Part shown: positions 15,137-42,810 of the stretch, one piece after another
How positions within the stretch are numbered: position 1 is the stretch's first letter
Layout of the letters: the number at the start of each line of letters is the position of its first letter
NCBI GenBank assembly: GCA_017465845.1
Contig: JAFTVH010000025.1
Coordinates: 1-44,298 of the forward strand
Length of the DNA: 44,298 nucleotides
Source: Lachnospiraceae bacterium
Lineage (GTDB): Bacteria; Bacillota; Clostridia; Lachnospirales; Lachnospiraceae
Direction: 5' to 3'
Translations under genes and position numbers: made by a program
The notes under the pieces: model-generated
What the model saw: the letters and a program-made list of their open reading frames with translations, nothing else
Told to the model about the DNA's origin: nothing
Databases searched by the model: none

Positions 15137-15285
15137 GTATTTTCTCCTGGTGTATATATGATCATTACGATTGTTGAAAGAGTGCCTCAATTTCAAAATA
15201 TTGGAAAACGCAAATTTCGGAAACTAATATAAAATATTATAGCATATCCCTTTTATTACAGCAATTGTTAAAAATATAATTAAAT

Positions 15286-15319
15286 GAGCGATTAGTCCTT
15301 TTTTGAGAGCGATATGTCC
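15286..15319 (+). promoter_or_regulatory. Tandem direct repeat, probable AraC operator
   Basis: GAGCGATTAGTCC (15286-15298) is repeated as GAGCGATATGTCC (15307-15319), 11 of 13 identical, with starts 21 bp apart (two helical turns). The second copy ends one base before the -35 box, as AraC-type activators require. Confidence 0.65.
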
Positions 15320-27479: not shown

Positions 27480-27530
27480 GTGCAACTTATATAAATGGAA
27501 TTGTATAGTATTCACAAAGAAAAAGTTAAG

Positions 27531-27606
27531 ATTTTTTGCAAAGTGAGCAAAATGACGAAATTGGCAAAAAATTCTACTTGATTGTACATTTACAACAGAA
27601 TAAAAT
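27531..27606 (+). promoter_or_regulatory. Regulon element copy A plus promoter of the regulator gene
   Basis: The 50-bp element spans 27531-27580. ATTTTTTGC (27531-27539) and GCAAAAAAT (27564-27572) form an exact 9-bp inverted repeat with centres 33 bp apart. The element ends in CTTG, whose TTG opens the -35 box TTGATT (27578-27583). TAAAAT follows after 17 bases (27601-27606). Matching copies lie at 29568 and 39025. Confidence 0.8.
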
Positions 27607-27659
27607 TATCTTATATAGAAAGTAACTGCAATATACATATGGATGAGGGAGTGGGTCAT

Positions 27660-29504
27660 ATGAAGAAACGTAAATATTTATATCGTCTTGCAACAATCAT
27701 GATATTGGCATTGGTGGTGCCGGTTATTTTGTTCTTCAATTTCTTTTGGAAGAAATCATTTCATGAGATGGAAGAGACGAATGAAGTGTTTTACGAAAAG
27801 AGACTGGAAGCATATATATCTTTGTATGACCAAAAGATTAAGGAATTGGCTACTTTTACGGCAGCTATCAGCGCCGATAGCAAGAAGCCCGGGAACGGTC
27901 TGTGGATTGGAGCAGAAGGACTTAAAGAAAATTATTTTCAGTATTATATGGTTACAAAGGAGTTGGAAGAAAAATATACAAGATATGATGTCAGCGAGTG
28001 GGGAGTTTATATTTATGACTTAAAAAAATTTATTCAGCCCGGTGCTACGATGTCTTTTGAATCTTTTATTGACAGATATGCAAGTACAGAGGAAGATAAA
28101 GAACAACTTGAGGAGTTTCTTTCTGTGAATAATTATTCAAATACTAAAATTATATACAATACTACAAATTTTTTGGGGAATTATGATGGAAATTTGCTTG
28201 TAGGTATTTGCACCAGGATAGGGGCAAACAATGATAGTGCACTTATTTATTTTCGCTTATCAACTACGGATATAGAGGATTCATTGGCAATTATCGATAA
28301 CCAGGGTATAGAGTATTATCTGCTCGATAAATCTGAGAACAGGATATTACTGGCATGGGGAGATACCGTAGGTGAAAACGCAGAAGCAGTATTAAATAAT
28401 GAAGTTTGGCGAGAAGCTGCGGGAGTAAAGCAAAAGGTAATGTATCAGAAAGAAAGTGCATATACCCATTTAAACCTGATTGCTTATGTTTCTGAGGATT
28501 CTATACAGGGCAATATTATGGATTATGCCCATGATATGAGAACGCTTTTAACTTTTACCATAATTCTATTATTGTTAATATGTCTGGCGGCATTATATGT
28601 AGCTTATAAACCGATACAGGAATTGACCAGCGAATTGGATTATTCCGAAGGCGGCGAGTTTGAATTGATTCGCAATGTATTGTATGACCGGCATATTAGA
28701 ATCGAAGAGCAGGAAATGCTTATAATGGATTTGTTACTGAATCACTTGATTTATGGGGTTCCTATTTCGGAAAAGCGTTTGAAACGTCTTGGTCTGGAAG
28801 AAGCGATGCATTACTATTGCGTTTTTCTTTTAGACGGTTATGTTTTGGTGAGCAGTGAATCGGAAAAAATTATCAAGGATATTGAGCAGACATTTCAGTC
28901 ACGTTTGTTTGTGACAGACTGGCAGGGAGAGGAACGCAGTATTTTAATTTTATTTACGCGAGATTCCGATATAGCTGCTGTCGGCGAATATTTATCACGA
29001 TGGTTAGAGGAATGTTATATTTCGGATTGTGCCTTGTATAGTGGCAAAGTGGTGGAGAAGCTGGATGATATTCGATTAAGCCTCCGCTCCTGCTTTGAAC
29101 AGATAAAAAAGAAAAATGTGAAAGAACAAAAGGAAAAGGACGATATTAATATACAGACCCCAAAAGAAAAACAGAATGTTAAGATGAAGGAAGAAATTTT
29201 AGCATATCTGGAGCTGAATTACAGAGATGCTAATTTGAGTCAGGTACAGGTAGCAGATCATTTTAGAATTTCTAATTATACGCTCAGCAGATTGTTTAAA
29301 AATCAGGTGGGTGTAGGTTTTGCGGAGTATTTGGTTAGCAAACGCTTGGAATGTGCCAAGGAATTACTGCTGACAACGTCTTATTCAGTACAGGAAATAT
29401 CTGTCATGGCCGGTTTTTCCAGCGTAAATTATTTCTCGAGAACATTTAAAATATATGTAGGCATGTCGCCTTCTGCTTTCAGAGTGGTTGAGAAGAATTT
29501 GTAA
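27660..29504 (+). CDS. Membrane-bound AraC-type regulator (YesN-like sensor) of glycan cluster 2
   Basis: A 614-aa protein that joins sensing and DNA binding. A transmembrane helix at about 10-30 and another at about 296-318 flank an extracytoplasmic sensor domain of about 265 residues. A cytoplasmic linker follows, and an AraC helix-turn-helix domain occupies about 508-610 (VADHFRISNYTLSRLFKNQ and VQEISVMAGFSSVNYFSRTF). This architecture is common in Firmicutes sugar clusters, where the external domain senses an oligosaccharide or its binding protein. The start at 27660 is chosen for the GAGGGAG about 10 bases upstream; the frame stays open to an ATG at 27582. Its own promoter carries element A, so autoregulation is likely. 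Confidence 0.9.
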   Translation: MKKRKYLYRLATIMILALVVPVILFFNFFWKKSFHEMEETNEVFYEKRLEAYISLYDQKIKELATFTAAISADSKKPGNGLWIGAEGLKENYFQYYMVTKELEEKYTRYDVSEWGVYIYDLKKFIQPGATMSFESFIDRYASTEEDKEQLEEFLSVNNYSNTKIIYNTTNFLGNYDGNLLVGICTRIGANNDSALIYFRLSTTDIEDSLAIIDNQGIEYYLLDKSENRILLAWGDTVGENAEAVLNNEVWREAAGVKQKVMYQKESAYTHLNLIAYVSEDSIQGNIMDYAHDMRTLLTFTIILLLLICLAALYVAYKPIQELTSELDYSEGGEFELIRNVLYDRHIRIEEQEMLIMDLLLNHLIYGVPISEKRLKRLGLEEAMHYYCVFLLDGYVLVSSESEKIIKDIEQTFQSRLFVTDWQGEERSILILFTRDSDIAAVGEYLSRWLEECYISDCALYSGKVVEKLDDIRLSLRSCFEQIKKKNVKEQKEKDDINIQTPKEKQNVKMKEEILAYLELNYRDANLSQVQVADHFRISNYTLSRLFKNQVGVGFAEYLVSKRLECAKELLLTTSYSVQEISVMAGFSSVNYFSRTFKIYVGMSPSAFRVVEKNL

Positions 29505-29508
29505 TAAA

Positions 29509-29564
29509 GAAACTCCGGGGTTCACTTTAAATTCAGAGTGTCCCCGGGGTTTCTTTATTGTTTT
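29509..29564 (+). terminator. Terminator of the cluster 2 regulator gene
   Basis: GAAACTCCGGGG (29509-29520) pairs with CCCCGGGGTTTC (29542-29553), 12 bp with one T-G pair, then TTTATTGTTTT. Confidence 0.85.
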
Positions 29565-29567
29565 ACG

Positions 29568-29643
29568 ATTTTTTGCAAAGGGACCAATTTACTGAGTGAT
29601 GCAAAAATTTATTCTTGTTCCGCAATGAAATGAATGATAGCTT
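29568..29643 (+). promoter_or_regulatory. Regulon element copy B plus promoter of the uronate operon
   Basis: The element occupies 29568-29617, aligned without gaps to copies A and C. The left half is ATTTTTTGC (29568-29576) and the right half GCAAAAATT (29601-29609). It ends at the -35 TTGTTC (29615-29620). A poor -10, TAGCTT (29638-29643), lies 17 bases on, as expected if activation is required. Confidence 0.75.
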
Positions 29644-29654
29644 GACAGTATGAG

Positions 29655-29683
29655 GTGGCTTTTATTACACATATAAAAGCCAC
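29655..29683 (+). other. 11-bp stem-loop in the uxaC leader
   Basis: GTGGCTTTTAT (29655-29665) pairs exactly with ATAAAAGCCAC (29673-29683), 7-base loop, just downstream of the promoter and 24 bases before the uxaC start. It could be an operator palindrome or an mRNA 5' stabiliser. Confidence 0.6.
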
Positions 29684-29707
29684 GATGTTTATAAACAGGA
29701 GAATACT

Positions 29708-31081
29708 ATGAATGCAGAATATTTATTGTCGAGTGAATATGCAAAGAAGCTATACCATCAGTACGCAGCTCACCTTCCCATTATTGACTATCATAACCAT
29801 TTGTCTGTAGCGGATATTGTTGCCGACAGGAAGTTTGAAAATATCACGCAGCTTTGGATTCGTGTTGACCCATACAAACACAGGGCTATGAGAATTCTGG
29901 GTATTCCGGAAAAATACATTACCGGGGATGCGTCTGATTATGAGAAGTTTGAAAAATGGTATGGGTGTCTTCCCAGGCTTGCCGGTAACGCACTGTTTGA
30001 TTGGTCTGTTATGGAGTTTGACAAGGTGTTAGGCATGGACCTTTACCCTTTTAAGAAAAGTGCAGCGCAGGTGTGGGGAGAAGCAAATGAGAAGCTGAAG
30101 GAGCTTTCTGCAAAAAAAATTCTGGAAAAGTTTGACATAGAGTACTGTGCTCCTTGTGCTTCCCTTGTGGAGGATTTATCACTGTTTGACAGGTCAAAAG
30201 GTATCTGTCCTTCTCTGAGAGGGGATGACATTGTGGGAGTAAATTTAAGCTTTGTAAAGAAGCTGGAGCAGCTGACAGGCATGACAATAAAAAGTCTGGA
30301 GTCGTTTGAAGAAGCCATCTGGAAACGTCTGGAAGACTTTGCAGAGGTGGGTTGTAAGTATTCTGACCACGCGCTGGACGATGGTTTTGGGTATGCTTTG
30401 GATGATGGAAGAAATGATAAAAGATTTCAGGCAGTACTTCGTGGCGAGGCATTGTCGGAAGAGGACAAGTTATGCCTCACTTCCGGAATTTTGAAAACCC
30501 TCGCAGGGTTCTATGCAAAGATTGGCTTTACCATGCAGTTACATATAGGTGCCAAAAGAGGCACCAGTACCCGCCTTCGTGAATTGACTGGTCCTACAGG
30601 TGGTTATGCAGCCATAGGAAACTGTGTCAATGTGAAAGCGTTAACGGATATACTGGATGATATCGAAAAGCAGGAGTATGGACTTCCGAAAATACTGCTC
30701 TTTACGCTGAATCCTGCTGATAATGCGGTCATGAGCATCCTTTCCGGCTCCTACAGTAAGGACGGAGTAGAAGCAGTGGTCAGCCAGGGACCTGCCTGGT
30801 GGTGGTGTGATCACTATCAGGGCATGATGGAGATGTTAGATCATCTTTCTGTATTCGGAGTGATGTCCACGTTTGTAGGCATGACCACGGATTCCAGAAG
30901 CCTTCTTTCTTTTGTGAGACATGACTATTTCAGACGCGTCCTTTGTCAGTGGATGGGAGAAAAGGTACAGAAGGGCGTGCTTCCTGACAATTTTGATATT
31001 TTATCAGATATCGTAAAAAGAATGTGTTATACCAACGCATTAAAAACCATAAAGGGAGGAAATTTAAATGCATTTCAATGA
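29708..31081 (+). CDS. uxaC: Glucuronate isomerase
   Basis: A 457-aa metal-dependent uronate isomerase of the amidohydrolase superfamily, converting D-glucuronate to D-fructuronate (or galacturonate to tagaturonate) in the cytosol. DYHNHLS near residue 28 gives the metal-binding HxH. MQLHIGAKRGTST and the TTDSRSLLSFVRHDYFRR block near the C-terminus are family signatures. Length is as expected (about 460-470). AGGAG lies 9 bases upstream. It is the first gene of the cluster 2 catabolic operon, behind element B, and its end overlaps the next gene by 14 bases. Confidence 0.95.
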   Translation: MNAEYLLSSEYAKKLYHQYAAHLPIIDYHNHLSVADIVADRKFENITQLWIRVDPYKHRAMRILGIPEKYITGDASDYEKFEKWYGCLPRLAGNALFDWSVMEFDKVLGMDLYPFKKSAAQVWGEANEKLKELSAKKILEKFDIEYCAPCASLVEDLSLFDRSKGICPSLRGDDIVGVNLSFVKKLEQLTGMTIKSLESFEEAIWKRLEDFAEVGCKYSDHALDDGFGYALDDGRNDKRFQAVLRGEALSEEDKLCLTSGILKTLAGFYAKIGFTMQLHIGAKRGTSTRLRELTGPTGGYAAIGNCVNVKALTDILDDIEKQEYGLPKILLFTLNPADNAVMSILSGSYSKDGVEAVVSQGPAWWWCDHYQGMMEMLDHLSVFGVMSTFVGMTTDSRSLLSFVRHDYFRRVLCQWMGEKVQKGVLPDNFDILSDIVKRMCYTNALKTIKGGNLNAFQ

Positions 31082-31982
31082 CAGAAAGGATATTATTGAA
31101 CTTACGCCTCTGTGGAAAGGAGAGCGCTTTGCGGATGGCAGGCCGAAGGTACCGGACAAGTATCTGGATGCCCTTAAGGGTATGACTCTGGAAGAGGTGT
31201 GGAAGCCTATTTTCGTGCTCGGTTATGAAAACCAGTTTGTTGGCGGTGGTTTGGCACCATTACACACACTTCATGACGACGGCAGAAAGCTGATCGGACG
31301 TGCTGTTACCTGTAGCTTTTGCCCTACACGTCCGGACCTCCATGAGGTGATGTTTACCAAAGGAGCAGAAGAAGGCAGAAAGGGTAACTACAATCAGTGG
31401 GTAATTGATAGTCTGGTAGAACGAGATGTAGTTGTTGTGGATATGTATGACAAAATCTACAAGGGTACGTTCCTTGGCGGTAACCTGACTACTGCGATTA
31501 AGACCAGGACTAAAAACGGCGGTGCCGTTGTATGGGGCGGTATCAGAGATGTGGAGCAGATGAAGCAGGTGCCGGATGTGCAGGTGTATTACAGAGGTAT
31601 TGACCCGACTCCAATCAGAGATTTTGTCATGACCGGATTTAATACCGTGACCAATTTCGGTGGTTCGGTATGTCTGCCGGGTGATGTGGTGTTCGGTGCC
31701 GGTGGTGGCGTACTGTTTATTCCAAGCCATCTGGTTGCAGACGTAGTGGAAGGCGCAGCAAAGACCCACGTAAAGGATGATTTCGGCTTTGAGATGATTG
31801 GTCAGAATAAGTTTACAACAGCCCAGATTGACAGAAATACCTGGACCGTGGAAATGCTGGATATGCTGATGGAGTGGATTCAGACAGATGATAGAGGCAT
31901 TCCGTATCGTGACCTTGACTGGTCTAAGGAATATGACTTGGCTATCAACGGTGATCCTAACGATACACAGACAGCATTGTAA
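31068..31982 (+). CDS. RraA family protein (HMG-aldolase-like)
   Basis: A 304-aa protein of the RraA / 4-hydroxy-4-methyl-2-oxoglutarate aldolase family, often mislabelled as demethylmenaquinone methyltransferase. The core motif LGGNLTTAIKTRTKNGG...GGIRDVEQM contains the Gly and the Arg-Asp pair that bind pyruvate/metal in the aldolases; PGDVVFGAGGGVLFIP follows. It is longer than minimal RraA proteins (about 160-230 aa), with extra N- and C-terminal segments. In this uronate operon it may act as a retro-aldolase or decarboxylase on a 2-keto sugar acid, but that is inference. GGGAGG precedes the ATG, which lies within the end of uxaC. Confidence 0.85.
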   Translation: MHFNDRKDIIELTPLWKGERFADGRPKVPDKYLDALKGMTLEEVWKPIFVLGYENQFVGGGLAPLHTLHDDGRKLIGRAVTCSFCPTRPDLHEVMFTKGAEEGRKGNYNQWVIDSLVERDVVVVDMYDKIYKGTFLGGNLTTAIKTRTKNGGAVVWGGIRDVEQMKQVPDVQVYYRGIDPTPIRDFVMTGFNTVTNFGGSVCLPGDVVFGAGGGVLFIPSHLVADVVEGAAKTHVKDDFGFEMIGQNKFTTAQIDRNTWTVEMLDMLMEWIQTDDRGIPYRDLDWSKEYDLAINGDPNDTQTAL

Positions 31983-31999
31983 AAGAAAAGGAGATTTAA

Positions 32000-32848
32000 A
32001 TGGATACATATTTTAATGACAAAGTAGCAGTAGTGACAGGAGCCGGAGGCGTCATCTGTTCTCAGGTTTCCAAGGAATTGGCTGGTCTGGGTATGACCGT
32101 AGTACTGGTAGGGCTGACTCTTGAGAAGCTTCAGAAGGTAGAAAAAGAAATCAAGGAAGCAGGCGGTAAGTGCAAGGTATATGCCTGTGACGTAACAGAT
32201 GAAGCGAGAGTAAATGTTCTGGCGGAAACAGTAGTGGCAGAGTTTGGCAAGGTTGATTATCTGGTAAACGGTGCCGGCGGCAACAGCTCTAAGGCTACAA
32301 CAAATATTCCGAAATTTGACCCTGGAGAGCTTGCAGAGGACCGCCCGGAAGATTTACGAGGTCTTTACAACGTGGATATGAAAGCCTTTGAAGATGTGAT
32401 CAGACTCAACACGATGGGCACCGTATATCCAATGTTAGCTTTTGCCAAGTATATGGTAAAGGAAGGACATGGCAGCATTGTAAACTTTGCATCCATGAAT
32501 ACCTACTGTCCACTGACCAGAAACTTTGCATATGCCATGAGTAAAGCTGCTGTAGCAAACTTTACCAAAGCGTTTGCAGCATATTTTGGCGAAACAGGTA
32601 TCAGAATCAATGCTGTGGCTCCGGGCTTTATCGTGAATGCTCGTACCAAGGGAATTCTCGGTACCGTAGAAGAAGGGCTTACTGAGAGAGGAAGAAAAGT
32701 GATTGATCATACTCCTCAGGGTAAGTTTGGTGAAGCACAGGATATGTTTGGCTGTATTCAGTTTTTACTGGATGAAAGAGCATCTGCATTCGTTACCGGT
32801 GTTACTATCCCCGTAGACGGCGGTTTCCTTACCCTCAGTGGTGTATAA
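32000..32848 (+). CDS. uxuB: SDR oxidoreductase, probable D-mannonate oxidoreductase (UxuB type)
   Basis: A 282-aa short-chain dehydrogenase. The cofactor loop VTGAGGVICSQVSKELA has Cys where many SDRs have Gly, as is usual in SDR-type mannonate oxidoreductases. VNGAGGNSS and the catalytic YAMSK (Tyr/Lys), with its Ser upstream in NFASMN, are intact; VDGGF closes the fold. The likely reaction is reduction of D-fructuronate to D-mannonate with NADH. Position between uxaC and uxuA fits this. A KduD-like 2-keto-3-deoxygluconate dehydrogenase is the main alternative, but the length favours UxuB. AAAGGAG lies 7 bases upstream of the ATG. Confidence 0.85.
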   Translation: MDTYFNDKVAVVTGAGGVICSQVSKELAGLGMTVVLVGLTLEKLQKVEKEIKEAGGKCKVYACDVTDEARVNVLAETVVAEFGKVDYLVNGAGGNSSKATTNIPKFDPGELAEDRPEDLRGLYNVDMKAFEDVIRLNTMGTVYPMLAFAKYMVKEGHGSIVNFASMNTYCPLTRNFAYAMSKAAVANFTKAFAAYFGETGIRINAVAPGFIVNARTKGILGTVEEGLTERGRKVIDHTPQGKFGEAQDMFGCIQFLLDERASAFVTGVTIPVDGGFLTLSGV

Positions 32849-32862
32849 GCAGGAGGTCATTT

Positions 32863-33801
32863 ATGCTTTTAACTGATTATTTCAGATATCCCAAGGACAG
32901 CACCTGGGATATCGCAAGACAATGCGGTGTGGAGCACGGTGTCATTCGACTTCCGGAAGATGGGGCGTTCGAGTTAACGAACGCTTCCCATTGGCAGAAA
33001 GTTTATGATGATTTTATAAACTTCGGTATCAAGCCGGTGATTATAGAGCCGATGCCAAACGAGCTTCATGACCATATTAAAGCCGGAGATGAAAAGCGTG
33101 ACGAGTCCATTGAAAAGGTTATCAAGATGTTCCCTATTATGGACCGGTTGGATATTCGCTGCATTTGCTTTAACTGGATGGCACATATTGGCTGGTATAG
33201 AAACGTACTGGATATTCCTGAAAGAGGCGGTGCAAAGGTAACCGGATTTAACATGGCTGATTTTGTGGCACCGGATGATTGCATCACCGAGAAGGAACTT
33301 TGGGACAATTATGAGTACTTCCTTAAGGCAGTTATTCCGTATGCGGAGAAGTATGGTATCAATCTGGCACTTCATCCGGACGACCCGCCAATGAAGCTTG
33401 GAAATGTGTCCAGAATCATGACAAGCTACAAGAATATTGACAAGGCTATCAACGGAATTGTACCCAGCAAAAATCTGGGTGTGACCATGTGCCAGGCAAC
33501 CTACCATATCATGGGTGAGGACCTTTACAAGGTAATTCCGGCATTGGCAGAGAAAATTTTCTTTGTACATTTCAGAAATACAACCGGCACAATGGAAAAC
33601 TTCCGTGAGACCTTCCATGACAATGGGGAAATTCGCATGGCGGATATCATGAAGCTGTATAAAAAGTGCGGTGTGAATGTACCGGTGCGAGTAGACCATG
33701 TACCGACCATGTTGGGCGAGGATACTGTAAATCATGGATATGATGCGCTGGGCAGATTCCTTGCAATCGGTTATTTAAAGGGTATTATTGAGACCATGTA
33801 A
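32863..33801 (+). CDS. uxuA: Mannonate dehydratase (UxuA-like, short form)
   Basis: A 312-aa TIM-barrel enzyme matching mannonate dehydratase, which dehydrates D-mannonate to 2-keto-3-deoxy-D-gluconate. Signatures are NLALHPDDPP, the YHIMGEDLYKVIPALAEKI region, FVHFRN, FHDNGEI and the C-terminal PVRVDHVPTM, which together hold the metal ligands. It is shorter than classical UxuA (about 360-394 aa), lacking part of the N-terminal and inserted segments, so it may be a divergent subfamily. GCAGGAGG lies about 8 bases upstream. It follows the uxuB-type gene after 14 bases. Confidence 0.88.
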   Translation: MLLTDYFRYPKDSTWDIARQCGVEHGVIRLPEDGAFELTNASHWQKVYDDFINFGIKPVIIEPMPNELHDHIKAGDEKRDESIEKVIKMFPIMDRLDIRCICFNWMAHIGWYRNVLDIPERGGAKVTGFNMADFVAPDDCITEKELWDNYEYFLKAVIPYAEKYGINLALHPDDPPMKLGNVSRIMTSYKNIDKAINGIVPSKNLGVTMCQATYHIMGEDLYKVIPALAEKIFFVHFRNTTGTMENFRETFHDNGEIRMADIMKLYKKCGVNVPVRVDHVPTMLGEDTVNHGYDALGRFLAIGYLKGIIETM

Positions 33802-33820
33802 CAGAAAGGAGACATTAGAA

Positions 33821-35332
33821 ATGCTTAACATTTATACGAATAAAAAGCAAAAGGACCTGGTCCATTTCTGGGACGGTATCGTGTTCCATCCTACGGATGC
33901 TATCGAGGATGACTGGGGACAGCGTATTTTAAATCGTATCAGTGATGATAAGGCTGTGAAGATGGTACGAATCTACACCATGATGGAAGATATTGTAACC
34001 TTGGATGAGCAAGGCAGGATGCAGTATGATTTTGAATTGAATGATTTCAGACTGGATTATCTTGTCTCCAAGGGTTTTGATATTATGCTTACTTATGCTT
34101 TTTTACCGCCATGGCTTACTGTAGATGCCAACAAAACCAGTTCTGTTTCCAAGAATAAAACCCGTTATAAAGGGAAGATGATTGTTGCATCTTATGCAAA
34201 GGATTACAGCAAGTGGGAAGAAATATGCCGTAAATATACGGAGCATATCGTGGCCCGCTACGGAGAAGAGGTTGTTTCTAAATGGAGACTTCAGTGCTAC
34301 AATGAGCCGAATTTAGACTTTTTCTTTATGGCAGGAGAGCCGGATTCAAAAAGGCGCTGTGAAGAATATTGCAAAATCTACGATGGTTTTGAAGCCGGCG
34401 TAACATCTGTAAGTAAAAAGATGCAGATTGGTGGTCCTGCCCTGGCAGAACCGGAAGAGTACGGTCCGTTTTTAGAGCAGTTCTTACAGCATGTGAAAGC
34501 AAATAACAGAAAAATGGATTTTGTAAGCTTCCATACCTATGGTACATCACCGGATTTTCTAAATAGCGGTGACAAACCGTTGAATATCCGTAATTCTTTA
34601 AAATCCATAGATATTGCAGTTGGAGTTTGCAGAGAACAGGGCTTCTCGCACCTGCCTCTGATATGTGATGAATGGGGAGCGGCTTCCCATGGTTTTTATA
34701 ATATTGATGAGTGTCCTGCATTCCTGTTCCGTGAAAATGAGCTGTATTCTGTATATTTTACCAAGATGATTACCATGTATGATGAAATGGAAATACCTCT
34801 GGAAAAGCTGATGATCTGTCTGTCAGGACAGCACGAAATGGTAACAGATTTTTCAGGTTTTCGCAATTTCTTCACCCTGAATTTTTACCCGAAGCCGATT
34901 TACAACGCGCATATACTTGCCCGTAAATTAGGAAGCAGAAAGCTTTATTTTGATGGGGAATACACAGAGCACTTATCTGTAATGCCTACGAATCATGACG
35001 ATGGACATATGAGTATTCTGTTAGGATATGCAGATGACCGCTTTGAACAGGAACTGGATGATTATACGGTTTCTATGGATATGAAGGGGCTTGAAAAGAG
35101 TTATGATGTAAAGATGTATATCATTGACAAGAACCATGCCAATGCATACAAAAAATACTGTGATTTGGGAAAACCGGACAATCCAACAAAGGAGCAGAAA
35201 CAGCAGATCAGGGAATTCGCATGCCTGGAACCAATAAAGTTGGGCAAAGTTTCTCCGGAAAAGACGCAGATCACATTTGCTATGACTAATAATGCGACCG
35301 TACTTATAGAATTGTTCCCATGTGCAGAATAA
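33821..35332 (+). CDS. GH39-like glycoside hydrolase
   Basis: A 503-aa clan GH-A (alpha/beta)8-barrel enzyme resembling family 39 (beta-xylosidase, alpha-L-iduronidase). CYNEPNLDFFF carries the acid/base Glu (NEP motif), and LICDEWGAASHG the probable nucleophile Glu. The aromatic AFLPPWL near the first strands is also typical. The C-terminal part is a beta domain ending in VLIELFPCA. There is no signal peptide, so the substrate is imported. The uronate-pathway neighbours favour a uronic-acid-linked substrate over plain xylan. The start at 33821 follows AAAGGAG; an earlier in-frame ATG at 33788 overlaps uxuA. Confidence 0.75.
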   Translation: MLNIYTNKKQKDLVHFWDGIVFHPTDAIEDDWGQRILNRISDDKAVKMVRIYTMMEDIVTLDEQGRMQYDFELNDFRLDYLVSKGFDIMLTYAFLPPWLTVDANKTSSVSKNKTRYKGKMIVASYAKDYSKWEEICRKYTEHIVARYGEEVVSKWRLQCYNEPNLDFFFMAGEPDSKRRCEEYCKIYDGFEAGVTSVSKKMQIGGPALAEPEEYGPFLEQFLQHVKANNRKMDFVSFHTYGTSPDFLNSGDKPLNIRNSLKSIDIAVGVCREQGFSHLPLICDEWGAASHGFYNIDECPAFLFRENELYSVYFTKMITMYDEMEIPLEKLMICLSGQHEMVTDFSGFRNFFTLNFYPKPIYNAHILARKLGSRKLYFDGEYTEHLSVMPTNHDDGHMSILLGYADDRFEQELDDYTVSMDMKGLEKSYDVKMYIIDKNHANAYKKYCDLGKPDNPTKEQKQQIREFACLEPIKLGKVSPEKTQITFAMTNNATVLIELFPCAE

Positions 35333-35345
35333 GGAGTGGAATAAC

Positions 35346-36128
35346 ATGAATGTTTTTATTTTGACGGATCTGGAAGGCATTAGCGGTATCAATGATATCA
35401 CATATATGGAGAGGGGGAGCGAAAAGTATGCTTTGGCGTGCCGATTCCTTTCCGAGAGCATAGACCTTGCGGTAAAAACCTGTTTTGACTGTGGTGCAGA
35501 ACATGTGTATTACCTGGATGGACACGGCGGTGGGGGAAATGTTTTGGAGCATTTGATCGATACCCGTGCCGTAAAATGTGATATTACAGGCTGGCAGCAG
35601 CTTCTTAGTGAAGGCAAAATTGACTGCCAGATTGAACTGGGGGCTCACGCCCGTGCAGGTACGGTACTTGGTTTCCTGGATCATACCACCAATTCCAGAA
35701 AATACTTTTGTCACAAGGTAAATGGTATGGAAATGAGTGAATTATCCATGCATGCTTTGGTTTGTTCCGCTTATGATGTGCCGATTGTTGCCTGTATAGG
35801 AGATGAAACAGCCTGCATACAGGCAAAGGAATATATTCCTGATATTTATACAGGAGCAGTAAAGAAAGCTTTGTGCAGAAATCAGGCAGTGGAATGTGAA
35901 AATGCAGACAAAATACTGACAGAAACTGTTAAAAATGCACTGGATAATTACAAAAATGTATCTCTCTATAAGGTAAAGGAGCCTGCGGAAATAGAGCTGA
36001 CTTTCTATCGTACTGACATGTGTGAGGAAGCTTATTCAGAGTGCGGCAAAGAGGTAGAGCGCATCGGAGCGCGTACGCTCAGAAGAAAAGTGGACAAAAT
36101 CACCAGATATGAGGAACTGAGATTTTAA
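35346..36128 (+). CDS. M55 family D-aminopeptidase-like protein (DppA type)
   Basis: A 260-aa zinc peptidase of family M55. TDLEGISG at the N-terminus gives the Asp and Glu ligands; YYLDGHGGGGN, GAHARAGT and CIGDETA supply the other conserved His and Glu residues, matching the Bacillus D-aminopeptidase DppA. That enzyme cleaves D-Ala dipeptides, as released from peptidoglycan. Its place between two glycoside hydrolases in a uronate operon is unusual and hints at a glycan substituted with an amino acid, or at a repurposed amidase. AAGGAG lies 10 bases before the chosen ATG. It has no signal peptide. Confidence 0.88.
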   Translation: MNVFILTDLEGISGINDITYMERGSEKYALACRFLSESIDLAVKTCFDCGAEHVYYLDGHGGGGNVLEHLIDTRAVKCDITGWQQLLSEGKIDCQIELGAHARAGTVLGFLDHTTNSRKYFCHKVNGMEMSELSMHALVCSAYDVPIVACIGDETACIQAKEYIPDIYTGAVKKALCRNQAVECENADKILTETVKNALDNYKNVSLYKVKEPAEIELTFYRTDMCEEAYSECGKEVERIGARTLRRKVDKITRYEELRF

Positions 36129-36164
36129 AGACAACATGACAGGAGTAAATGGAGGAAAAGGCAG

Positions 36165-37751
36165 ATGAAAGTATCAGATTTATCACTGAAAGAGAAAATA
36201 CTGCAGACAATAGTTGTTAGAGTGGATAAAGAGAATTTCATATCAGACCGGGTAGGAGCAGCATTTTTCTTTGGGGAAATTATTACAGAAGCAGACGAAA
36301 TGGGATTAGACCAGGCCAGAAGCACACTGGCACAATATATTGATAACGCCGGGATTCCTATTCTGATTACTTCTGACTTTGAAAACGGGTGCGGCAGTAT
36401 GCTCAAAGGTCTGACGCCTTTACCGTATCTTATGAGTCTTGGGGCAACAGACAGCGAAGAGATTGCATACAACTATGGTAAGGCAACAGCACTGGAAGCC
36501 CGCTCTGTAGGAGCAAACTGGACATTTTCTCCGGTATGTGATTTGAGCCTTAACAAGCGTAATCCTCTAGTCAATGTTCGTTCTATCGGAGATGATCCGG
36601 AGCATGCAGCAAGGCTTTTGAAGCAGGTGATACGCGGCATGCAGGAAAACGGTCTGGCAGCCTGTGCCAAGCATTTCCCGGGAGACGGACTGGATTATCG
36701 TGACCAGCATATTGTGACTACGAATAATGACTTAAGCTTTGAAGAATGGAAGAAATTATCAGGTAAGGTATTTCAGGAGCTGATTGATGACGGAGTATAT
36801 TCTATCATGGCAGGCCACATTACCCTTCCGGATTATCAAAAAGAAGTTTTTTCTAACGGTATGAAGCTTCCGGCAACCCTGTCCCATGAGCTGCTGACAA
36901 ATCTGTTAAAGAAGGAAATGGGTTTTGAAGGTGTCATCGTATCAGATGCGCTCAGTATGGGCGGCATTATGGGTTGGTATCCGACCAGACGAAGAGCACA
37001 TATAGAATGCTTTAAGGCAGGCTGCGATATGATGCTCTGGCCGAATAAGGATTACGTAAATGATATGATACAAGCTGTGGAAAACGGCTATATATCTATG
37101 GAGAGACTGGATGATGCAGTAAGCAGAATCCTGAACATGAAGGAAAAGCTTGGATTGTTTGAAAAGGATAATCATGCCGTCAAACTTGAGAAAGAGGATC
37201 TGGAGTTTATAAGAAAAGCACAGCAGGAAACAGCGGAGCACTCTGTCACATTGATACGCGATAAAGGTAATCTTTTCCCATTGTCTCCTGAGAAGTATCC
37301 AAAGATAGCAGTTGTGCCGATTACACATCATGAGCCGGCTTTTGCAGAGGCGGAGCTTCTGTGTGAAGAACTTCGTGAAAAAGGCTTCGAGGTAAACTAT
37401 TGCAAAGATGGACTGACAATAAGTACACATGGAGAAAAACTGGATGCACTGGAGAAGAATATCGATGCCCATGATTTAATAATCTATGCATTGTTCTCCA
37501 GACCGTTCAGACCGATAGGTTTTCTGGATTTCATGGGGCCGGAAGCTACCAAGGTTATGCATAGTTTGAAATATGGAACGGAGAAATCTGTTGTGGTATC
37601 CTTTGGTTCTCCTTATTTTGGCAATCAGTATTTTGAAAGAGCGGTTACCTATGTAAATGCTTACTCTATGCTTTCACCCAGTGTAAAGGCGTTTGTAAAA
37701 GCCGCTGTTGGAGAAATTGAATTTAGTGAGTATAGTCCCGTGAAGTTGTAA
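36165..37751 (+). CDS. Intracellular GH3 glycoside hydrolase with C-terminal domain
   Basis: A 528-aa GH3 enzyme without signal peptide. The N-terminal TIM barrel (about 1-340) has the KHFPGDG block (169-175), a D-x-H pair (Asp180, His182) of the type used as acid/base by GH3 N-acetylglucosaminidases, and the nucleophile Asp in VSDALSMGG (about 261). The C-terminal alpha/beta domain (about 360-520) is kept, unlike in NagZ. The D-x-H dyad points to a beta-N-acetylhexosaminidase or phosphorylase-type activity on imported oligosaccharides, beside uronate enzymes. AGGAGGAAAAGG precedes the ATG. The nearest paralogue is the anchored GH3 at 26098-27414. Confidence 0.88.
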   Translation: MKVSDLSLKEKILQTIVVRVDKENFISDRVGAAFFFGEIITEADEMGLDQARSTLAQYIDNAGIPILITSDFENGCGSMLKGLTPLPYLMSLGATDSEEIAYNYGKATALEARSVGANWTFSPVCDLSLNKRNPLVNVRSIGDDPEHAARLLKQVIRGMQENGLAACAKHFPGDGLDYRDQHIVTTNNDLSFEEWKKLSGKVFQELIDDGVYSIMAGHITLPDYQKEVFSNGMKLPATLSHELLTNLLKKEMGFEGVIVSDALSMGGIMGWYPTRRRAHIECFKAGCDMMLWPNKDYVNDMIQAVENGYISMERLDDAVSRILNMKEKLGLFEKDNHAVKLEKEDLEFIRKAQQETAEHSVTLIRDKGNLFPLSPEKYPKIAVVPITHHEPAFAEAELLCEELREKGFEVNYCKDGLTISTHGEKLDALEKNIDAHDLIIYALFSRPFRPIGFLDFMGPEATKVMHSLKYGTEKSVVVSFGSPYFGNQYFERAVTYVNAYSMLSPSVKAFVKAAVGEIEFSEYSPVKL

Positions 37752-37784
37752 TGCAAAATATGAATAGTAAAGGATGGAACTAAA

Positions 37785-38984
37785 ATGTACGATATTAAGC
37801 TTACCAATTATGTGCCGGAGCCAAAGCCGGCAACGACAGACCGAATTATAGCTGCGCATTATTATGCAGCATGGAAAAAAGGTTCTGCAGGTATACATAA
37901 TGGATTTGAGGATCTTCATGATTTTCCGGAGCGCACTCCGCTTATGGGATATTATGATGAAGAGAATCCTGCTGTATGTGACTGGGAAATTAAGTGGGCA
38001 GTGGAGCATGGAATAAATTGCTTTATTCATTGCTGGTACAGAAAACTGGATAATATGGGAAAACCGGTGACGGTAAATGATTTGCGTTGTGGTCACGGTC
38101 TGCACGAGGCGCTCTTTCATGCAAGATATCAAAAATATATGAAGTTTGCAATCATGTTCGAAAATTCACCTCGTTGGGGGACTACCGATGCAGAGGATGT
38201 TTTAGATCATCTTATGCCTTTCTGGACAGAAAACTACTTTAAGAGAGACAACTATCTGAAAATAGATAACAAACCGGTTTTGTTTATATATTTCCAAAAC
38301 CGCCTGTCCGAGGTGTTCCCAAATCCGGAGGATCAAAAAAAGATGTTTGACTCCTGTCGTGAATATGCCGTAAAGCAGGGATTTGATGGTATGATTTTCG
38401 GATTGTGTAATAGCAGCACGGAGCGGGAAATGTATGAAGAAAGCATTGCCAGAGGATACGACTTTAGATTCGGATATAGCTCCGGTTACCGTCCGGAAGC
38501 AGATTATCCGGCAGAGGAGGATGTGGTCAAAGGACAGAGTGACCGTTTTAAAGAATATCTGAAAAATGACCCGATGAGGCATATCGGAACAGCATCCTGT
38601 TTTAGAGACTCTACACCACGTTCTACTGAGCATTGGATCAATATGGGGTATCATTTCCACGAAGAAAAGAGATGGCACTTAAGCCCGGAGAACTATCGTT
38701 TGGTGCTTCGGAATATGAAAGCAACGGCAGACAAATTACCGGATGGTGCATGGGCAAAACGTATTTTCATGCTTGACAATTGGAACGAGTGGGATGAAGG
38801 ACATTATATTGCTCCGAATCATGAATTTGGATTTAAGTATCTGCAGGCTGTTCGGGAAGAATTTACAGAATGTGATAATCTGCCGGATTATCGAACACCT
38901 CAGGACCTGGGACTTGATGGCTATAATACAAGTTGGGAAGTTCCCAAGTTTAAGGAAATTTGCGAGAAGAAGTTTAACTTGTAG
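37785..38984 (+). CDS. WbsX/GH99-like domain protein
   Basis: A 399-aa soluble protein of the WbsX family (GH99-like TIM barrel). Signatures are the opening IIAAHYYAAWKKG, NCFIHCWYRK, KPVLFIYF and the C-terminal NWNEWDEGHYIAPN, the conserved WNEW-EG motif. WbsX domains are best known from O-antigen and capsule biosynthesis loci, where they were called glycosyltransferases, but the fold is related to endo-mannosidase family GH99. In this catabolic operon a hydrolytic role is more plausible; no activity is established. AAAGGATGG precedes the ATG. It is the last gene of the uxaC operon. Confidence 0.82.
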   Translation: MYDIKLTNYVPEPKPATTDRIIAAHYYAAWKKGSAGIHNGFEDLHDFPERTPLMGYYDEENPAVCDWEIKWAVEHGINCFIHCWYRKLDNMGKPVTVNDLRCGHGLHEALFHARYQKYMKFAIMFENSPRWGTTDAEDVLDHLMPFWTENYFKRDNYLKIDNKPVLFIYFQNRLSEVFPNPEDQKKMFDSCREYAVKQGFDGMIFGLCNSSTEREMYEESIARGYDFRFGYSSGYRPEADYPAEEDVVKGQSDRFKEYLKNDPMRHIGTASCFRDSTPRSTEHWINMGYHFHEEKRWHLSPENYRLVLRNMKATADKLPDGAWAKRIFMLDNWNEWDEGHYIAPNHEFGFKYLQAVREEFTECDNLPDYRTPQDLGLDGYNTSWEVPKFKEICEKKFNL

Positions 38985-39024
38985 GGTTAGAAGGTATGGT
39001 GAAAAAGCTGAAAACGCATTTGCA

Positions 39025-39100
39025 ATTTTTTGCAAAAAGGTTATTTTGACGAAGCGTGCAAAAAATCTTTCTTGTTGAGCTGTGAAATATGTGCTAATTT
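39025..39100 (+). promoter_or_regulatory. Regulon element copy C plus promoter of the cluster 2 transport operon
   Basis: The element spans 39025-39074. ATTTTTTGC (39025-39033) and GCAAAAAAT (39058-39066) are an exact inverted repeat with the same 33-bp centre distance as copies A and B. It ends in CTTG at the -35 TTGTTG (39072-39077). The -10 TAATTT (39095-39100), with an extended TGC, lies 17 bases on. Confidence 0.8.
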
Positions 39101-39146: not shown

Positions 39147-40082
39147 ATGAACAAGAAAAAAATGAATACCAAAAAACAAGGTGCAACTCTGAAGTCACGT
39201 ATGTGGAAGAGTCGGTATTTTTATTTGATGCTATTGCCGGCAGTGGCTTATGTATTGATTTTTAATTATGCTCCTATGTATGGTTTGCAGATAGCATTTA
39301 AAAATTATAAGGTTTCTTTGGGTATGTGGAACAGTCCTTGGATTGGCTTTAGAAATTTTACGGATTTCTTTAACAGTTATTCCTTTCCGCAGTTAATGAA
39401 AAATACATTTATTCTTTCATTGTATCAGATACTGGTAGGGTTCCCTATACCGATTATTGTTGCACTTATTTTAAATGAATTAAAGGGTGGCTTTAAAAAG
39501 GCAACACAGACTATCCTGTATGCCCCGCACTTTATTTCTACCGTTGTATTAGTAGGTATTATTACTACTATGTTTTCCCCTTCTCAGGGTGTGGTGAATA
39601 CTCTGTTGGATGCTATAGGAATGGAACGCATCTATTTTATGGGAGAGGCAAAATATTTCAGACATATGTATGTATGGAGCGGTGTCTGGCAAGGTATGGG
39701 ATGGAGCGCTATTGTTTATCTGGCAGCACTTGCCGGTGTAGACCCGGCTCTTCATGAGGCTGCTGATATCGACGGAGCAACCAGGATGCAGAAAATCATA
39801 CATATCAACCTTCCGACGATTATGCCAACCATCATTATTATGTTAATACTTAGAATGGGCCAGATTGCAACGGTAGGTTATGAAAAAGTTTATTTGATGC
39901 AGAACGATTTGAATGTTTCCACGGCAGAAGTAATATCTACATATGTATATAAGAGGGGTCTCATTAATTTAAACTATAGCTTTTCTACGGCAATGGGTTT
40001 ATTCAATAATGTAATAAACGTAACTATGCTGTTAATTGCTAATAAGGTTTCTAAAAAAGTTAGTGGCTCCGGTCTTTTCTAA
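39147..40082 (+). CDS. ABC sugar transporter permease (LplB type), cluster 2
   Basis: A 311-aa inner-membrane permease with six helices after a basic N-terminus. YLMLLPAVAYVLIFNYAPMYG and the EAA loop HEAADIDGATRMQKIIHINLP identify an LplB-type CUT1 permease, paralogous to the cluster 1 protein at 17304. The start at 39147 is preferred, with AAAGGAG about 12 bases upstream; the frame is open further upstream but would run through element C and the promoter. It is the first gene of the transport unit and pairs with the next permease. Confidence 0.93.
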   Translation: MNKKKMNTKKQGATLKSRMWKSRYFYLMLLPAVAYVLIFNYAPMYGLQIAFKNYKVSLGMWNSPWIGFRNFTDFFNSYSFPQLMKNTFILSLYQILVGFPIPIIVALILNELKGGFKKATQTILYAPHFISTVVLVGIITTMFSPSQGVVNTLLDAIGMERIYFMGEAKYFRHMYVWSGVWQGMGWSAIVYLAALAGVDPALHEAADIDGATRMQKIIHINLPTIMPTIIIMLILRMGQIATVGYEKVYLMQNDLNVSTAEVISTYVYKRGLINLNYSFSTAMGLFNNVINVTMLLIANKVSKKVSGSGLF

Positions 40083-40104
40083 AAGGTATGAAAGGATGTA
40101 AAAA

Positions 40105-40980
40105 ATGAAGAAAAAGAAAATTACATTATTTGATATTATTGTACATATTATTTCCGGATTTTTGTTGCTGATTGTTTTGTATCCTTTAATTGTGGTTTTG
40201 TCCAGTTCTATTAGTGATCCTGCTTTAGTAGCTACAGGACAGGTTGTATTTCTTCCCAAGGGAATTAACTTTGAAGGGTATAAGGCGGTATTCAGTGATA
40301 AGGAAATCTTAATTGGTTATGCAAATACTATTTTTTATACGGTGTTTGGTACCCTCATTAACCTGTTTGTTACGGTTCCGGCAGGTTATGCACTAACCAA
40401 AAAAAATGTTCCGGGACGTAATTTTATCATGACTTTGTTTATGATTACGATGTATTTCCATGGTGGATTGATTCCGACGTTCCTTTTGGTCAATTCTCTG
40501 GGATTATATAACACTCGTTGGGTATTGTTGATTATGGGAGCATTCAGTACCTACAACTGTATTATCTGTCGTTCTTTCTTTGCTGCAATGCCGCAGGAAC
40601 TGGAGGAAGCAGCGGAGATTGACGGTTGTAATCCGTTAAGAACTTTTGTACAGATTGTACTTCCGCTTTCAAAGGCTTTAATGGGAGTTATGGTTTTGTA
40701 TTTTGGTGTAGCACATTGGAACTCCTATTTCAACGCCATGATTTATATCAAGGAAGATCATATGCAGCCACTCCAGGTATTTTTGAGAAGAATATTAATT
40801 TTGGCGCAGTCAGCCATGAATATGGAAGAGGGCGGTGAATTTGCTCAGGCAATGGCTGACAGAGAAGCTCTGATCCGTTATGCAGTTATCGTGGTATCTT
40901 CCTTACCGCTTCTGATAGTTTATCCGTTCCTGCAGAAGTATTTTGACAAGGGTGTTTTAATCGGTTCCGTGAAAGGTTGA
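40105..40980 (+). CDS. ABC sugar transporter permease (YtcP type), cluster 2
   Basis: A 291-aa inner-membrane permease. Helix 1 is IVHIISGFLLLIVLYPLIVVL. The EAA motif EEAAEIDGCNPLRTFVQIVLP is present, and the C-terminus FLQKYFDKGVLIGSVKG is the family hallmark. It forms the import channel with the product at 39147-40082. AAAGGATG precedes the ATG. As in cluster 1, there is no ATPase gene nearby, so energy probably comes from a shared ATPase encoded elsewhere. Confidence 0.93.
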   Translation: MKKKKITLFDIIVHIISGFLLLIVLYPLIVVLSSSISDPALVATGQVVFLPKGINFEGYKAVFSDKEILIGYANTIFYTVFGTLINLFVTVPAGYALTKKNVPGRNFIMTLFMITMYFHGGLIPTFLLVNSLGLYNTRWVLLIMGAFSTYNCIICRSFFAAMPQELEEAAEIDGCNPLRTFVQIVLPLSKALMGVMVLYFGVAHWNSYFNAMIYIKEDHMQPLQVFLRRILILAQSAMNMEEGGEFAQAMADREALIRYAVIVVSSLPLLIVYPFLQKYFDKGVLIGSVKG

Positions 40981-41059
40981 TTGGGGCAAGAGTTAAGCCC
41001 GTCTTTACGGCGGTTAACATTAAATTAAGGGCCACCAAAGTGGCAGAAAGGATGGTTTT

Positions 41060-42721
41060 ATGAAAAAGAAACTAGTATCAATTGTATTGGCAGCTTCTAT
41101 GATGCTGTCAGTATGTGCATGTGGCAATGATGCTGCAAATGCAAGCAGTACATCTGAATCACAGGTTGCTTCCGCATCTACTGAGGAGGTTACCGCTGAG
41201 ACATCCGTTGAGCCTGAGGTATATGTTCCGACATATCCAATCGTGGACGAGCCTATTACGATCAAGGGTCTTGTAGTCGGTCAGAACACAACCTTTATGG
41301 AAGACAGAATCGTATGGCAAAAGGTCAGCGAAGTTACCGGTATTACCATTGAATGGGAAGTAATCGACAAAGAAGCACTGGGTACCTATCTTGCCGGTGG
41401 TGACTGGCCTGATTTGTTCCACTATCAATTGGATGCAGCTACTGTAAATGATTATGGTATCACAGGTGGAAGATTTGTAAACTACATGGATTATCTGGAT
41501 ATTATGCCTAACCTGGCAAAAGCTTATGAGGATTATCCAATGGCATTAGCAGCTTCCACTCAGTTAAACGGTGAAGTGTATAACCTCTTTAAAGTAAACG
41601 GTGCGCTTGCAACAGCTGTTCAGTGCAGACCTCATGTAAGACTTGATGTTTTGGAAGGTGCAGGCATTACAGAACTTCCTAAGACTGTGGATGAATTCTA
41701 TGATCAGTTAGTAACCTTAAAGGCTCACTACGGTACGCCGAGCTTTATTCTCGGAACAGAATATGAAAGTGACTGGGCTCCAATGCTTTATGCAGCGTTC
41801 GGTACCTTGACACAGATGGATTTTGCGGATGATGGTACAGGAAAACTTGTATTTGCACGTACTGAAGAGCAGATGAAGCGTTATTATGAGTTCTTAAATA
41901 AGCTGTACGAAGAAGAACTGATGAACCGTGAGTGGTTAACACTGGATAACACTGCAAAGAATCAGCTGGCTCAGTCCGGAACCTATGCTTATATTACCAG
42001 AGCTGCTGCTCAGAAATTAGGCGAGGCAGATTTAAAGGATGGTAATTGGGATTACATTGGTACTTGTGCTCCTTTAACAAGTGAATACGACAGTACACAG
42101 GAAATTTTAGGTTATGTGGACTATGACTCTAAAGCCGGTATGTATATCAATGCAGAAAGTGAATATGTGGAAGAAATCTGCAAGATGCTTGATATTGCAT
42201 ATGCAACAGAAGAAGTGGTAGAAGGTACCGGTTTGTGTGGTCAGTCCTTCATGTATGGTATGGAAGGTGTTGATTGGGAAATCAATGCTGACGGCACATA
42301 TTCCCAGATGTTCCCTGATACCTATAAGTCCTTCTCCGAATATCAGCTTGGTGCTCTTATTTGGATCAACTTCGGTCGTGCGGATCAGTTCGGCAGTGCA
42401 GTTACCGCTACTCCCGGTAATGCACAGGCAAGAGCAAAGGGCTTTGTAGAAAACGTTCTTCCTTACCAGTCTGACATTGTTGTTAAGAAGTCTCTTCTGA
42501 AGTTTACAGAGGATGAGCAGTATGTGCTGGATAACAAGCTTGGTGAAATCGAATCTTACTACAAACAGATGGAAGCTGAATTTATTACCGGTGCATCTGA
42601 CATTGAGACTAAGTGGAATGAATATGTAGCTACAATCGAAAAAATGGGCGTTGCCGATGTATTGGCAGTATACCAGGCTGCATATGACAGATGGAATGCC
42701 GCAATGAGTGTTCTGGAATAA
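41060..42721 (+). CDS. Extracellular sugar-binding lipoprotein of the cluster 2 importer
   Basis: A 553-aa solute-binding protein. The lipoprotein signal runs MKKK, hydrophobic core, then LSVCACGN; the lipidated Cys is residue 19 or 21. A Ser/Ala/Glu/Thr-rich linker to about residue 50 precedes the mature domain, of the large oligosaccharide-binding type. It should deliver uronate-containing oligosaccharides to the two permeases. AAAGGATG precedes the ATG. A long terminator-like hairpin follows, so this and the permease genes can be expressed in excess over the GH88 gene. Confidence 0.93.
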   Translation: MKKKLVSIVLAASMMLSVCACGNDAANASSTSESQVASASTEEVTAETSVEPEVYVPTYPIVDEPITIKGLVVGQNTTFMEDRIVWQKVSEVTGITIEWEVIDKEALGTYLAGGDWPDLFHYQLDAATVNDYGITGGRFVNYMDYLDIMPNLAKAYEDYPMALAASTQLNGEVYNLFKVNGALATAVQCRPHVRLDVLEGAGITELPKTVDEFYDQLVTLKAHYGTPSFILGTEYESDWAPMLYAAFGTLTQMDFADDGTGKLVFARTEEQMKRYYEFLNKLYEEELMNREWLTLDNTAKNQLAQSGTYAYITRAAAQKLGEADLKDGNWDYIGTCAPLTSEYDSTQEILGYVDYDSKAGMYINAESEYVEEICKMLDIAYATEEVVEGTGLCGQSFMYGMEGVDWEINADGTYSQMFPDTYKSFSEYQLGALIWINFGRADQFGSAVTATPGNAQARAKGFVENVLPYQSDIVVKKSLLKFTEDEQYVLDNKLGEIESYYKQMEAEFITGASDIETKWNEYVATIEKMGVADVLAVYQAAYDRWNAAMSVLE

Positions 42722-42735
42722 AATAATTACAAGAG

Positions 42736-42794
42736 CCTGCAGATTACTGCTGTCAGAGTCAGTTGACTAAGCAGGTACTGCAGGTTTTTGTTTT
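42736..42794 (+). terminator. Terminator or attenuator between the cluster 2 binding-protein and GH88 genes
   Basis: CCTGCAG (42736-42742) pairs with CTGCAGG (42778-42784), with further inner pairs (GTCA/TGAC), followed by TTTTTGTTTT. It looks like a full rho-independent terminator, yet no promoter is visible between it and GH88. Confidence 0.8.
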
Positions 42795-42810
42795 CACTCG
42801 ACGAGGTGAC

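Follow-up and report, generated by a model that had tools for sequence, protein, structure and literature searches.

A conserved inverted-repeat element ahead of a uronate operon, a transport operon and the gene for a predicted membrane-bound AraC-type regulator in a Lachnospiraceae bacterium

The window analyzed in this work is a 44,298-nt stretch (positions 1 to 44,298) of contig JAFTVH010000025.1 of a Lachnospiraceae bacterium (assembly GCA_017465845.1). It contains three copies of an inverted-repeat element, which precede the gene for a predicted membrane-bound AraC-type regulator, an operon for uronate utilization and a transport operon; the two operons look like genes for taking up and degrading oligosaccharides that contain uronate. 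The elements and genes (ABC, ATP-binding cassette; SDR, short-chain dehydrogenase/reductase; GH, glycoside hydrolase) are arranged as follows:

27523..27580, + strand: element A, upstream of the regulator gene; half-sites 27523-27539 (left) and 27564-27580 (right, GCAAAAAATTCTACTTG), 24-bp spacer 27540-27563
27660..29504, + strand: gene for a predicted membrane-bound regulator of AraC type with 614 aa; the predicted order is a membrane helix, a dCache-like outer domain, another membrane helix and an inner alpha/beta domain, followed by the AraC DNA-binding domain (~510-610)
29560..29617, + strand: element B, upstream of the uronate operon; half-sites 29560-29576 (left) and 29601-29617 (right, GCAAAAATTTATTCTTG), 24-bp spacer 29577-29600
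29708..38984, + strand: tightly packed uronate operon; UxaC, RraA-like protein, SDR, UxuA, GH39, M55 peptidase, GH3, WbsX-like protein
39017..39074, + strand: element C, upstream of the transport operon; half-sites 39017-39033 (left) and 39058-39074 (right, GCAAAAAATCTTTCTTG), 24-bp spacer 39034-39057
39147..43953, + strand: transport operon; genes for two ABC permeases and a solute-binding lipoprotein (DUF3502), and a gene with a weak match to GH88

Each element consists of two inverted 17-bp half-sites located 24 bp apart, and the downstream half ends in the TTG of a candidate -35 box. A previous reading of this DNA, made from its letters alone (the sequence-only reading), described a 50-bp element at 27531-27580, 29568-29617 and 39025-39074. 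These three blocks do align without gaps, the second and the third each being 70% identical to the first, and they share ATTTTTTGCAA at the left, GCAAAAA 26 bases past the first GC, and a terminal CTTG. The perfect 9-bp inverted repeat reported for copies A and C, with 33 bp between the centres, was likewise reproduced; however, the right half of copy B carries one change (GCAAAAATT vs GCAAAAAAT) and not two. The left edge of the block had been drawn too short: 17-bp left half-sites would start at 27523, 29560 and 39017, upstream of the 50-bp blocks, and the true unit comprises ~58 bp. The exact half-site length of 17 bp was set by analogy, and conservation backs ~14 bp plus the TTG. Copies A and C contain, in addition, an inner GCAAAA-N8-TTG in direct orientation (27547-27563 and 39032-39048), which is probably due to chance, as it lacks a counterpart in B and its offsets differ.

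The TTG was proposed to start a -35 box followed by a -10 hexamer 17 bases on. This arrangement is present in all three copies, with a good -10 box in A only (TAAAAT, 5/6); the hexamers of B and C match the consensus in 3/6 positions each. The candidate promoters, together with a hairpin past the regulator gene, are:

27578..27606, + strand: candidate regulator-gene promoter; -35 TTGATT 27578-27583, 17-bp spacer, -10 TAAAAT 27601-27606
29505..29557, + strand: strong hairpin past the regulator gene (-32.6 kcal/mol, z -8.1)
29615..29643, + strand: candidate uronate-operon promoter; -35 TTGTTC, 17-bp spacer, weak -10 TAGCTT
39072..39100, + strand: candidate transport-operon promoter; -35 TTGTTG, 17-bp spacer, weak -10 TAATTT

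The hairpin is the probable end of the regulator transcript, so element B would open a new transcription unit. A further hairpin (GTGGCTTTTATTACACATATAAAAGCCAC, 29655-29683) in the leader predicted for the uronate operon, downstream of promoter B, may have an effect on transcript stability or attenuation. The nearest solved chains of the GH39 protein are beta-xylosidases.

The C-terminal domain of the regulator contains two helix-turn-helix (HTH) motifs and scores 78.3 bits with HTH_18 (cut-off 33.6) and 57.5 with HTH_AraC (cut-off 26.6), which identifies an AraC/XylS-type protein. The match to the NCBIfam models of RhaS and RhaR is confined to this DNA-binding part, and no Pfam sensor domain was matched in the protein. 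In a structure model (mean predicted local distance difference test 81.3, predicted template modeling score 0.49, 10-row alignment), two long helices (5-74 and 282-324) flank the dCache-like domain; they are read as membrane helices with a predicted outer sensor between them. Foldseek relates the dCache-like domain to Tlp3, DctB and KinD (E 2e-4 to 6e-4), and the best structural match of the AraC-type domain is YesN 3lsg. The genome encodes three such paralogous regulators, namely that of the window and those on contigs C193 (57% identical) and C36 (37%).

The element is rare. At 85% completeness, however, the genome assembly (4.19 Mb in 201 contigs) may lack additional copies. The pattern ATTTTTTGCAA-N20..24-GCAAAAA-N3..12-TTG recovers the three window copies only, and TTTTGC-N22..25-GCAAAA-N8-TTG gives four matches, the reversed control being 0 in both cases; a pattern tolerating a variable right half returns the same four sites, likewise with 0 in its control, and a pattern with 10-15 bp spacing has no match in this genome. 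The fourth site lies on C193, ahead of the 57%-identical regulator gene. Thus, the motif is not scattered at random (4 sites in 4.19 Mb), and the statement that no copies occur elsewhere holds for the window, where no further inverted pair was found, but not for the genome. Nine other AraC-type genes listed for this genome (13 matches in all) sit on contigs without the element. A search of 137 further genomes from the genus gave 28 matches to the short pattern: two are located at relatives of the regulator (G026 and G519) and 26 elsewhere. Of these 26, 21 fall inside mechanical reading frames of at least 60 aa, although two true sites also lie within a spurious frame. No off-locus match has a detectable regulator relative within ~1.5 kb; for permeases, this neighborhood search relied on that of G127 and on the second one of the window.

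At E 1e-50, relatives of the regulator were detected in four genomes among 138 from the genus and in four among 397 sampled from the family, its own genome counted; at E 1e-35, samples of 392 genomes from the order and 391 from the class yielded the own genome only. These searches scored the best few candidates per genome in mostly sampled groups. Searches around G127 and G148 added the relatives G1218 and G1216. A related-locus scan gave at least 18 loci with four full-length relatives, three of which are records of G148, G026 and G519; in the remaining 14, the match covered the DNA-binding domain only. G148a/G1218 and G127/G445 are near-duplicate pairs.

The element is kept at relatives of the regulator, where its loss would have spoken against a functional site: among the 13 regulator loci examined, 11 have one copy or more. 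The promoter regions of regulator loci provided 16 sites (14 without near-duplicates). Their right halves contain GCAA in 16/16 and GCAAAA in 13/16 cases, followed by 8 bases and the TTG that starts the -35 box (TTT in both C36 sites). The left halves represent the same sequence inverted, with the T-run-G best kept, plus a conserved T close to their outer end; the most complete half-site, GCAAAAATTTACAC, occurs in C36. The best -10 hexamer, 16-18 bases on, matches TATAAT in at least 4/6 positions in 10 sites, in 3/6 in five and in 2/6 in one, which gives moderate support for promoters, the matches being uncalibrated against chance.

A matrix built from the six window half-sites was applied to 21 regulator-locus regions (three of them training regions) and, as controls, to 11 intergenic stretches, three of which were scanned on both strands (14 scans in all), with 400 shuffles each (floor 0.0025). 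An inverted pair was identified at p 0.0025-0.0075 in 13 of the 18 non-training regions, a number that includes both near-duplicate pairs, while all 14 control scans gave p of at least 0.22. Two other regions (the regulator sides of G127 and G445) show the same element on the other strand, and three fail (the C193 transport promoter, p 0.055; both sides of G148b, p ~0.07). GCAAAA-N8-TTG is present in 8 of 16 non-window regions vs 0.13 expected from shuffles. G1216, which was obtained after the pattern had been fixed but did enter the matrix built on the 16 sites, has the pair, spaced by 24 bp, at its regulator promoter as well as at its permease promoter.

Two further loci, L054 and G1218:C32, were scanned by pattern alone, without the window matrix. 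At L054 of Ruthenibacterium, where the regulator is 35% identical and the locus has 61% GC, TTTTGC-N13-GCAAAATTGTGCACTTG occurs at 15278-15313, ~80 bases ahead of a minus-strand GH31 gene and ~5 kb from the regulator gene, and 0 of 200 locus shuffles hold the strict pair. A second right half lies at L054 4757-4773. In G510 and G519, one element stands ahead of a strong GH88 gene running into the regulator gene and another ahead of the permease. Overall, the genes that adjoin the element in relatives encode permeases, GH88 proteins and regulators.

The distance from GC to TTG (TTT in C36) equals 14 bp in all 16 sites, which were partly chosen by this distance. Spacing between the half-sites is less uniform: 24 bp in eight sites, 13 in four (of these, G148a and G1218 obtain a higher score at 12), 23 in two, and 22 and 29 in one each. 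The best-scoring spacings in the 13 matrix-positive regions are 24 (four), 23 and 13 (two each), and 29, 22, 21, 12 and 11 (one each). The ~13-bp spacing, about one helical turn less, is found in three distant lineages: on the tree, in which a nine-row clade is unresolved inside, it occurs in two well-supported pairs, with 22-24 in six other rows, and it recurs in Ruthenibacterium. The shift of ~11 bp in three distant lineages suggests that the rotational phase of the half-sites is of importance, although the 29 of C36 does not fit. It is conceivable, and we propose it tentatively, that in a small family of membrane-anchored AraC regulators of Lachnospiraceae and kin the distance to the -35 box is near-frozen and the mutual spacing steps by one turn (24 to 13 bp), the two DNA-binding domains being held to the membrane by a flexible tether and having only to lie on one helix face. 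With respect to the protein, S538, Y540, T541, L542, R544 and F546 of the first DNA-reading helix are invariant in 10 regulators. This helix is thus largely invariant, as is the inner GCAA of the half-site, and both the second HTH and the outer part of the half-site vary, a pattern consistent with HTH1 lying on the inner part and HTH2 at the -35 box. An acidic residue is present in 9 of 11 regulators at the position of RhaS D241 and in 0 of 11 at that of D250, which makes a sigma contact plausible.

In our judgment, the elements are very probably sites of a dimer of the predicted membrane-anchored AraC regulator encoded at 27660-29504, which would activate the uronate and transport operons as well as its own gene. 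The kept distance to the -35 box fits an activator, and the element is rare, is built of inverted halves, and is present at the regulator, transporter and glycosidase promoters of relatives. We infer that two DNA-binding domains of the dimer occupy the inverted half-sites, the downstream one covering the upstream edge of the -35 box, touching sigma and recruiting RNA polymerase (class II activation, as in rhaBAD and rhaSR). The outer dCache-like domain would sense a sugar-acid compound, and this sensing would jointly switch on the operons for uronate/glycosidase functions and ABC transport and, by autoregulation, the regulator gene.

Several observations weigh against this interpretation. Elements B and C are followed by weak -10 boxes, and the short pattern exceeds its reversed control genus-wide (26 off-locus matches vs three in 138 genomes), so such inverted repeats are enriched for other reasons too. 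The inverted pair is absent at G148b (27% identical to the window regulator) and at G1218:C32 (27% identical to that of G148a). The transport promoter of the C193 paralog (L034 10547-10756) has no standard element: it contains GCAAAATGACTTG, with the TTG 4 bp closer and the T-run shared with a likely terminator, and so, lying outside the 16 sites, breaks the 14-bp rule with 10 bp. With regard to spacing, the left arm of G510_9007 was set at 24 by eye, while matrices favor 16 or 21; G148a and G1218 score equally or better at 12 or 11; and the spacing of 29 at the C36 own promoter is off by about half a turn. Direct pairs reach p of at most 0.05 (200 shuffles) in 15 of 21 regulator-locus regions vs 1 of 14 control scans, and they outscore inverted pairs in C36_reg and G519_9073 with the window matrix and in G510_9007 and G519_9073 with the 16-site matrix. 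Finally, most of the relatives' regions had been inspected by eye before the tests.

Among the alternatives, the sites might be bound mainly or also by the C193 or C36 paralogs, the three operons then belonging to a cross-talking shared regulon. The first DNA-reading helix is near-identical in the three regulators, and the closely similar site before the C193 regulator gene leaves room for use of the sites by more than the window regulator. Nevertheless, every paralog gene has its own adjoining element, with a 23-bp spacer at C193 and other half-sites (GCAAGAATTTACAC) in one of the C36 sites, and we regard such sharing as rather unlikely. Repression by covering of the -35 box, the first three bases of which are overlapped by the downstream half, appears improbable: RhaS overlaps the -35 box at rhaBAD yet activates (PMC9429829), and the kept phase combined with weak -10 boxes in B and C is generally typical of activator-dependent promoters.

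Head-to-tail binding to direct GCAAA repeats, a mode predicted for the rhamnose regulators of AraC type in Bacillales, is less probable still. Besides the direct pairs described above, it could draw on the GCAAA in direct orientation on both sides of the window copies and on the inner GCAAAA-N8-TTG of A and C. Direct pairs, however, obtain low p values because GCAAAA is common in these regions. Their spacings scatter over 12-29, and inverted pairs score higher in 19 of 21 regions (window matrix) and 14 of 16 sites (16-site matrix). In relatives, left arms ending in GC continue with ACA, ATT, GTT, TTC, TGT, AAT, AGC or AGA, never AAA, and the T-run is kept; the left arm of G519_9073 (CAAAATTTTG) is self-palindromic, so both orientations score. 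A same-orientation arrangement with a fixed 21-bp period is therefore disfavored by the scattered spacing and the lower scores, single sites excepted. Chance likeness of AT-rich promoter DNA, in which T- and A-runs are common, has a negligible probability and was rejected on genome counts, shuffles and control scans: the off-locus rate predicts ~0.26 matches for this genome (an estimate at ~3.1 Mb a genome) vs the four observed, every one at a relevant promoter, and the phase is kept in relatives.

The proposed activation by the window regulator resembles that by RhaS and RhaR of E. coli at rhaBAD and rhaSR, respectively: an AraC-family domain, inverted 17-bp half-sites, and a downstream half over the -35 box. 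RhaS and RhaR are soluble, and the RhaS spacer at rhaBAD is 16 bp, in agreement with the K-12 sequence; the window regulator, in contrast, is predicted to be membrane-anchored with an outer sensor. Our spacers of 24, 23, 22 or 13 bp (one of 29) also differ from the 16-17 bp of those systems, as does the half-site sequence. The downstream RhaS half overlaps the -35 box by 4 bp, with sigma contacts at D241 and D250 (PMC9429829), and RhaR binds two inverted 17-bp halves separated by 17 bp (PMC3870299). The latter source also describes control of rhamnose genes by an AraC-family RhaR and of rhamnogalacturonan genes by RhgR in Bacillales; unlike the inverted pairs found here, the motifs predicted for this RhaR are direct repeats with a 21-bp period. 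Among solved structures, the closest DNA-binding domains are 3lsg of Fusobacterium and 6swi of Geobacillus, which represent YesN-type response regulators and AraT. These entries are named as two-component response regulators, whereas the predicted sensor and the DNA-binding domain are combined here in one chain. The gene context resembles that of the gram-positive polysaccharide utilization loci (gpPULs) of Roseburia and E. rectale within Lachnospiraceae, in which an AraC-type gene adjoins an ABC transporter and glycosidases; the parts of that report available to us name no binding site for the gpPUL regulators (PMC5320581).

In titles, abstract beginnings and passages, most subscription journals lying outside this search, no published description of the motif or of a binding site for this kind of regulator was found. 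A conserved activator-type site would be ordinary in principle; within the literature searched, it appears to be new in sequence, spacing and regulator type. The site, readable from sequence alone, would lead to a three-operon regulon, and it offers a rule for cultured relatives: inverted halves, kept contact with the -35 box, and a spacer stepping by one turn.

Some minor features were also observed. Two spacers of relatives, at L078 3874-3920 and L127 4243-4289, contain dyads of their own (GGGCATAATTGCCC; AGGAGCC..GGCTCCT), which possibly represent the site of a second regulator. GCAAAACAAAAAAGTTG, at L081 2552-2568 and L128 6583-6599, lies on the strand that points away from a distant regulator, lacks the usual left arm, and is maybe a variant site. 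At the contig end, the window carries an exact 29-base direct repeat (1-29 and 100-128).

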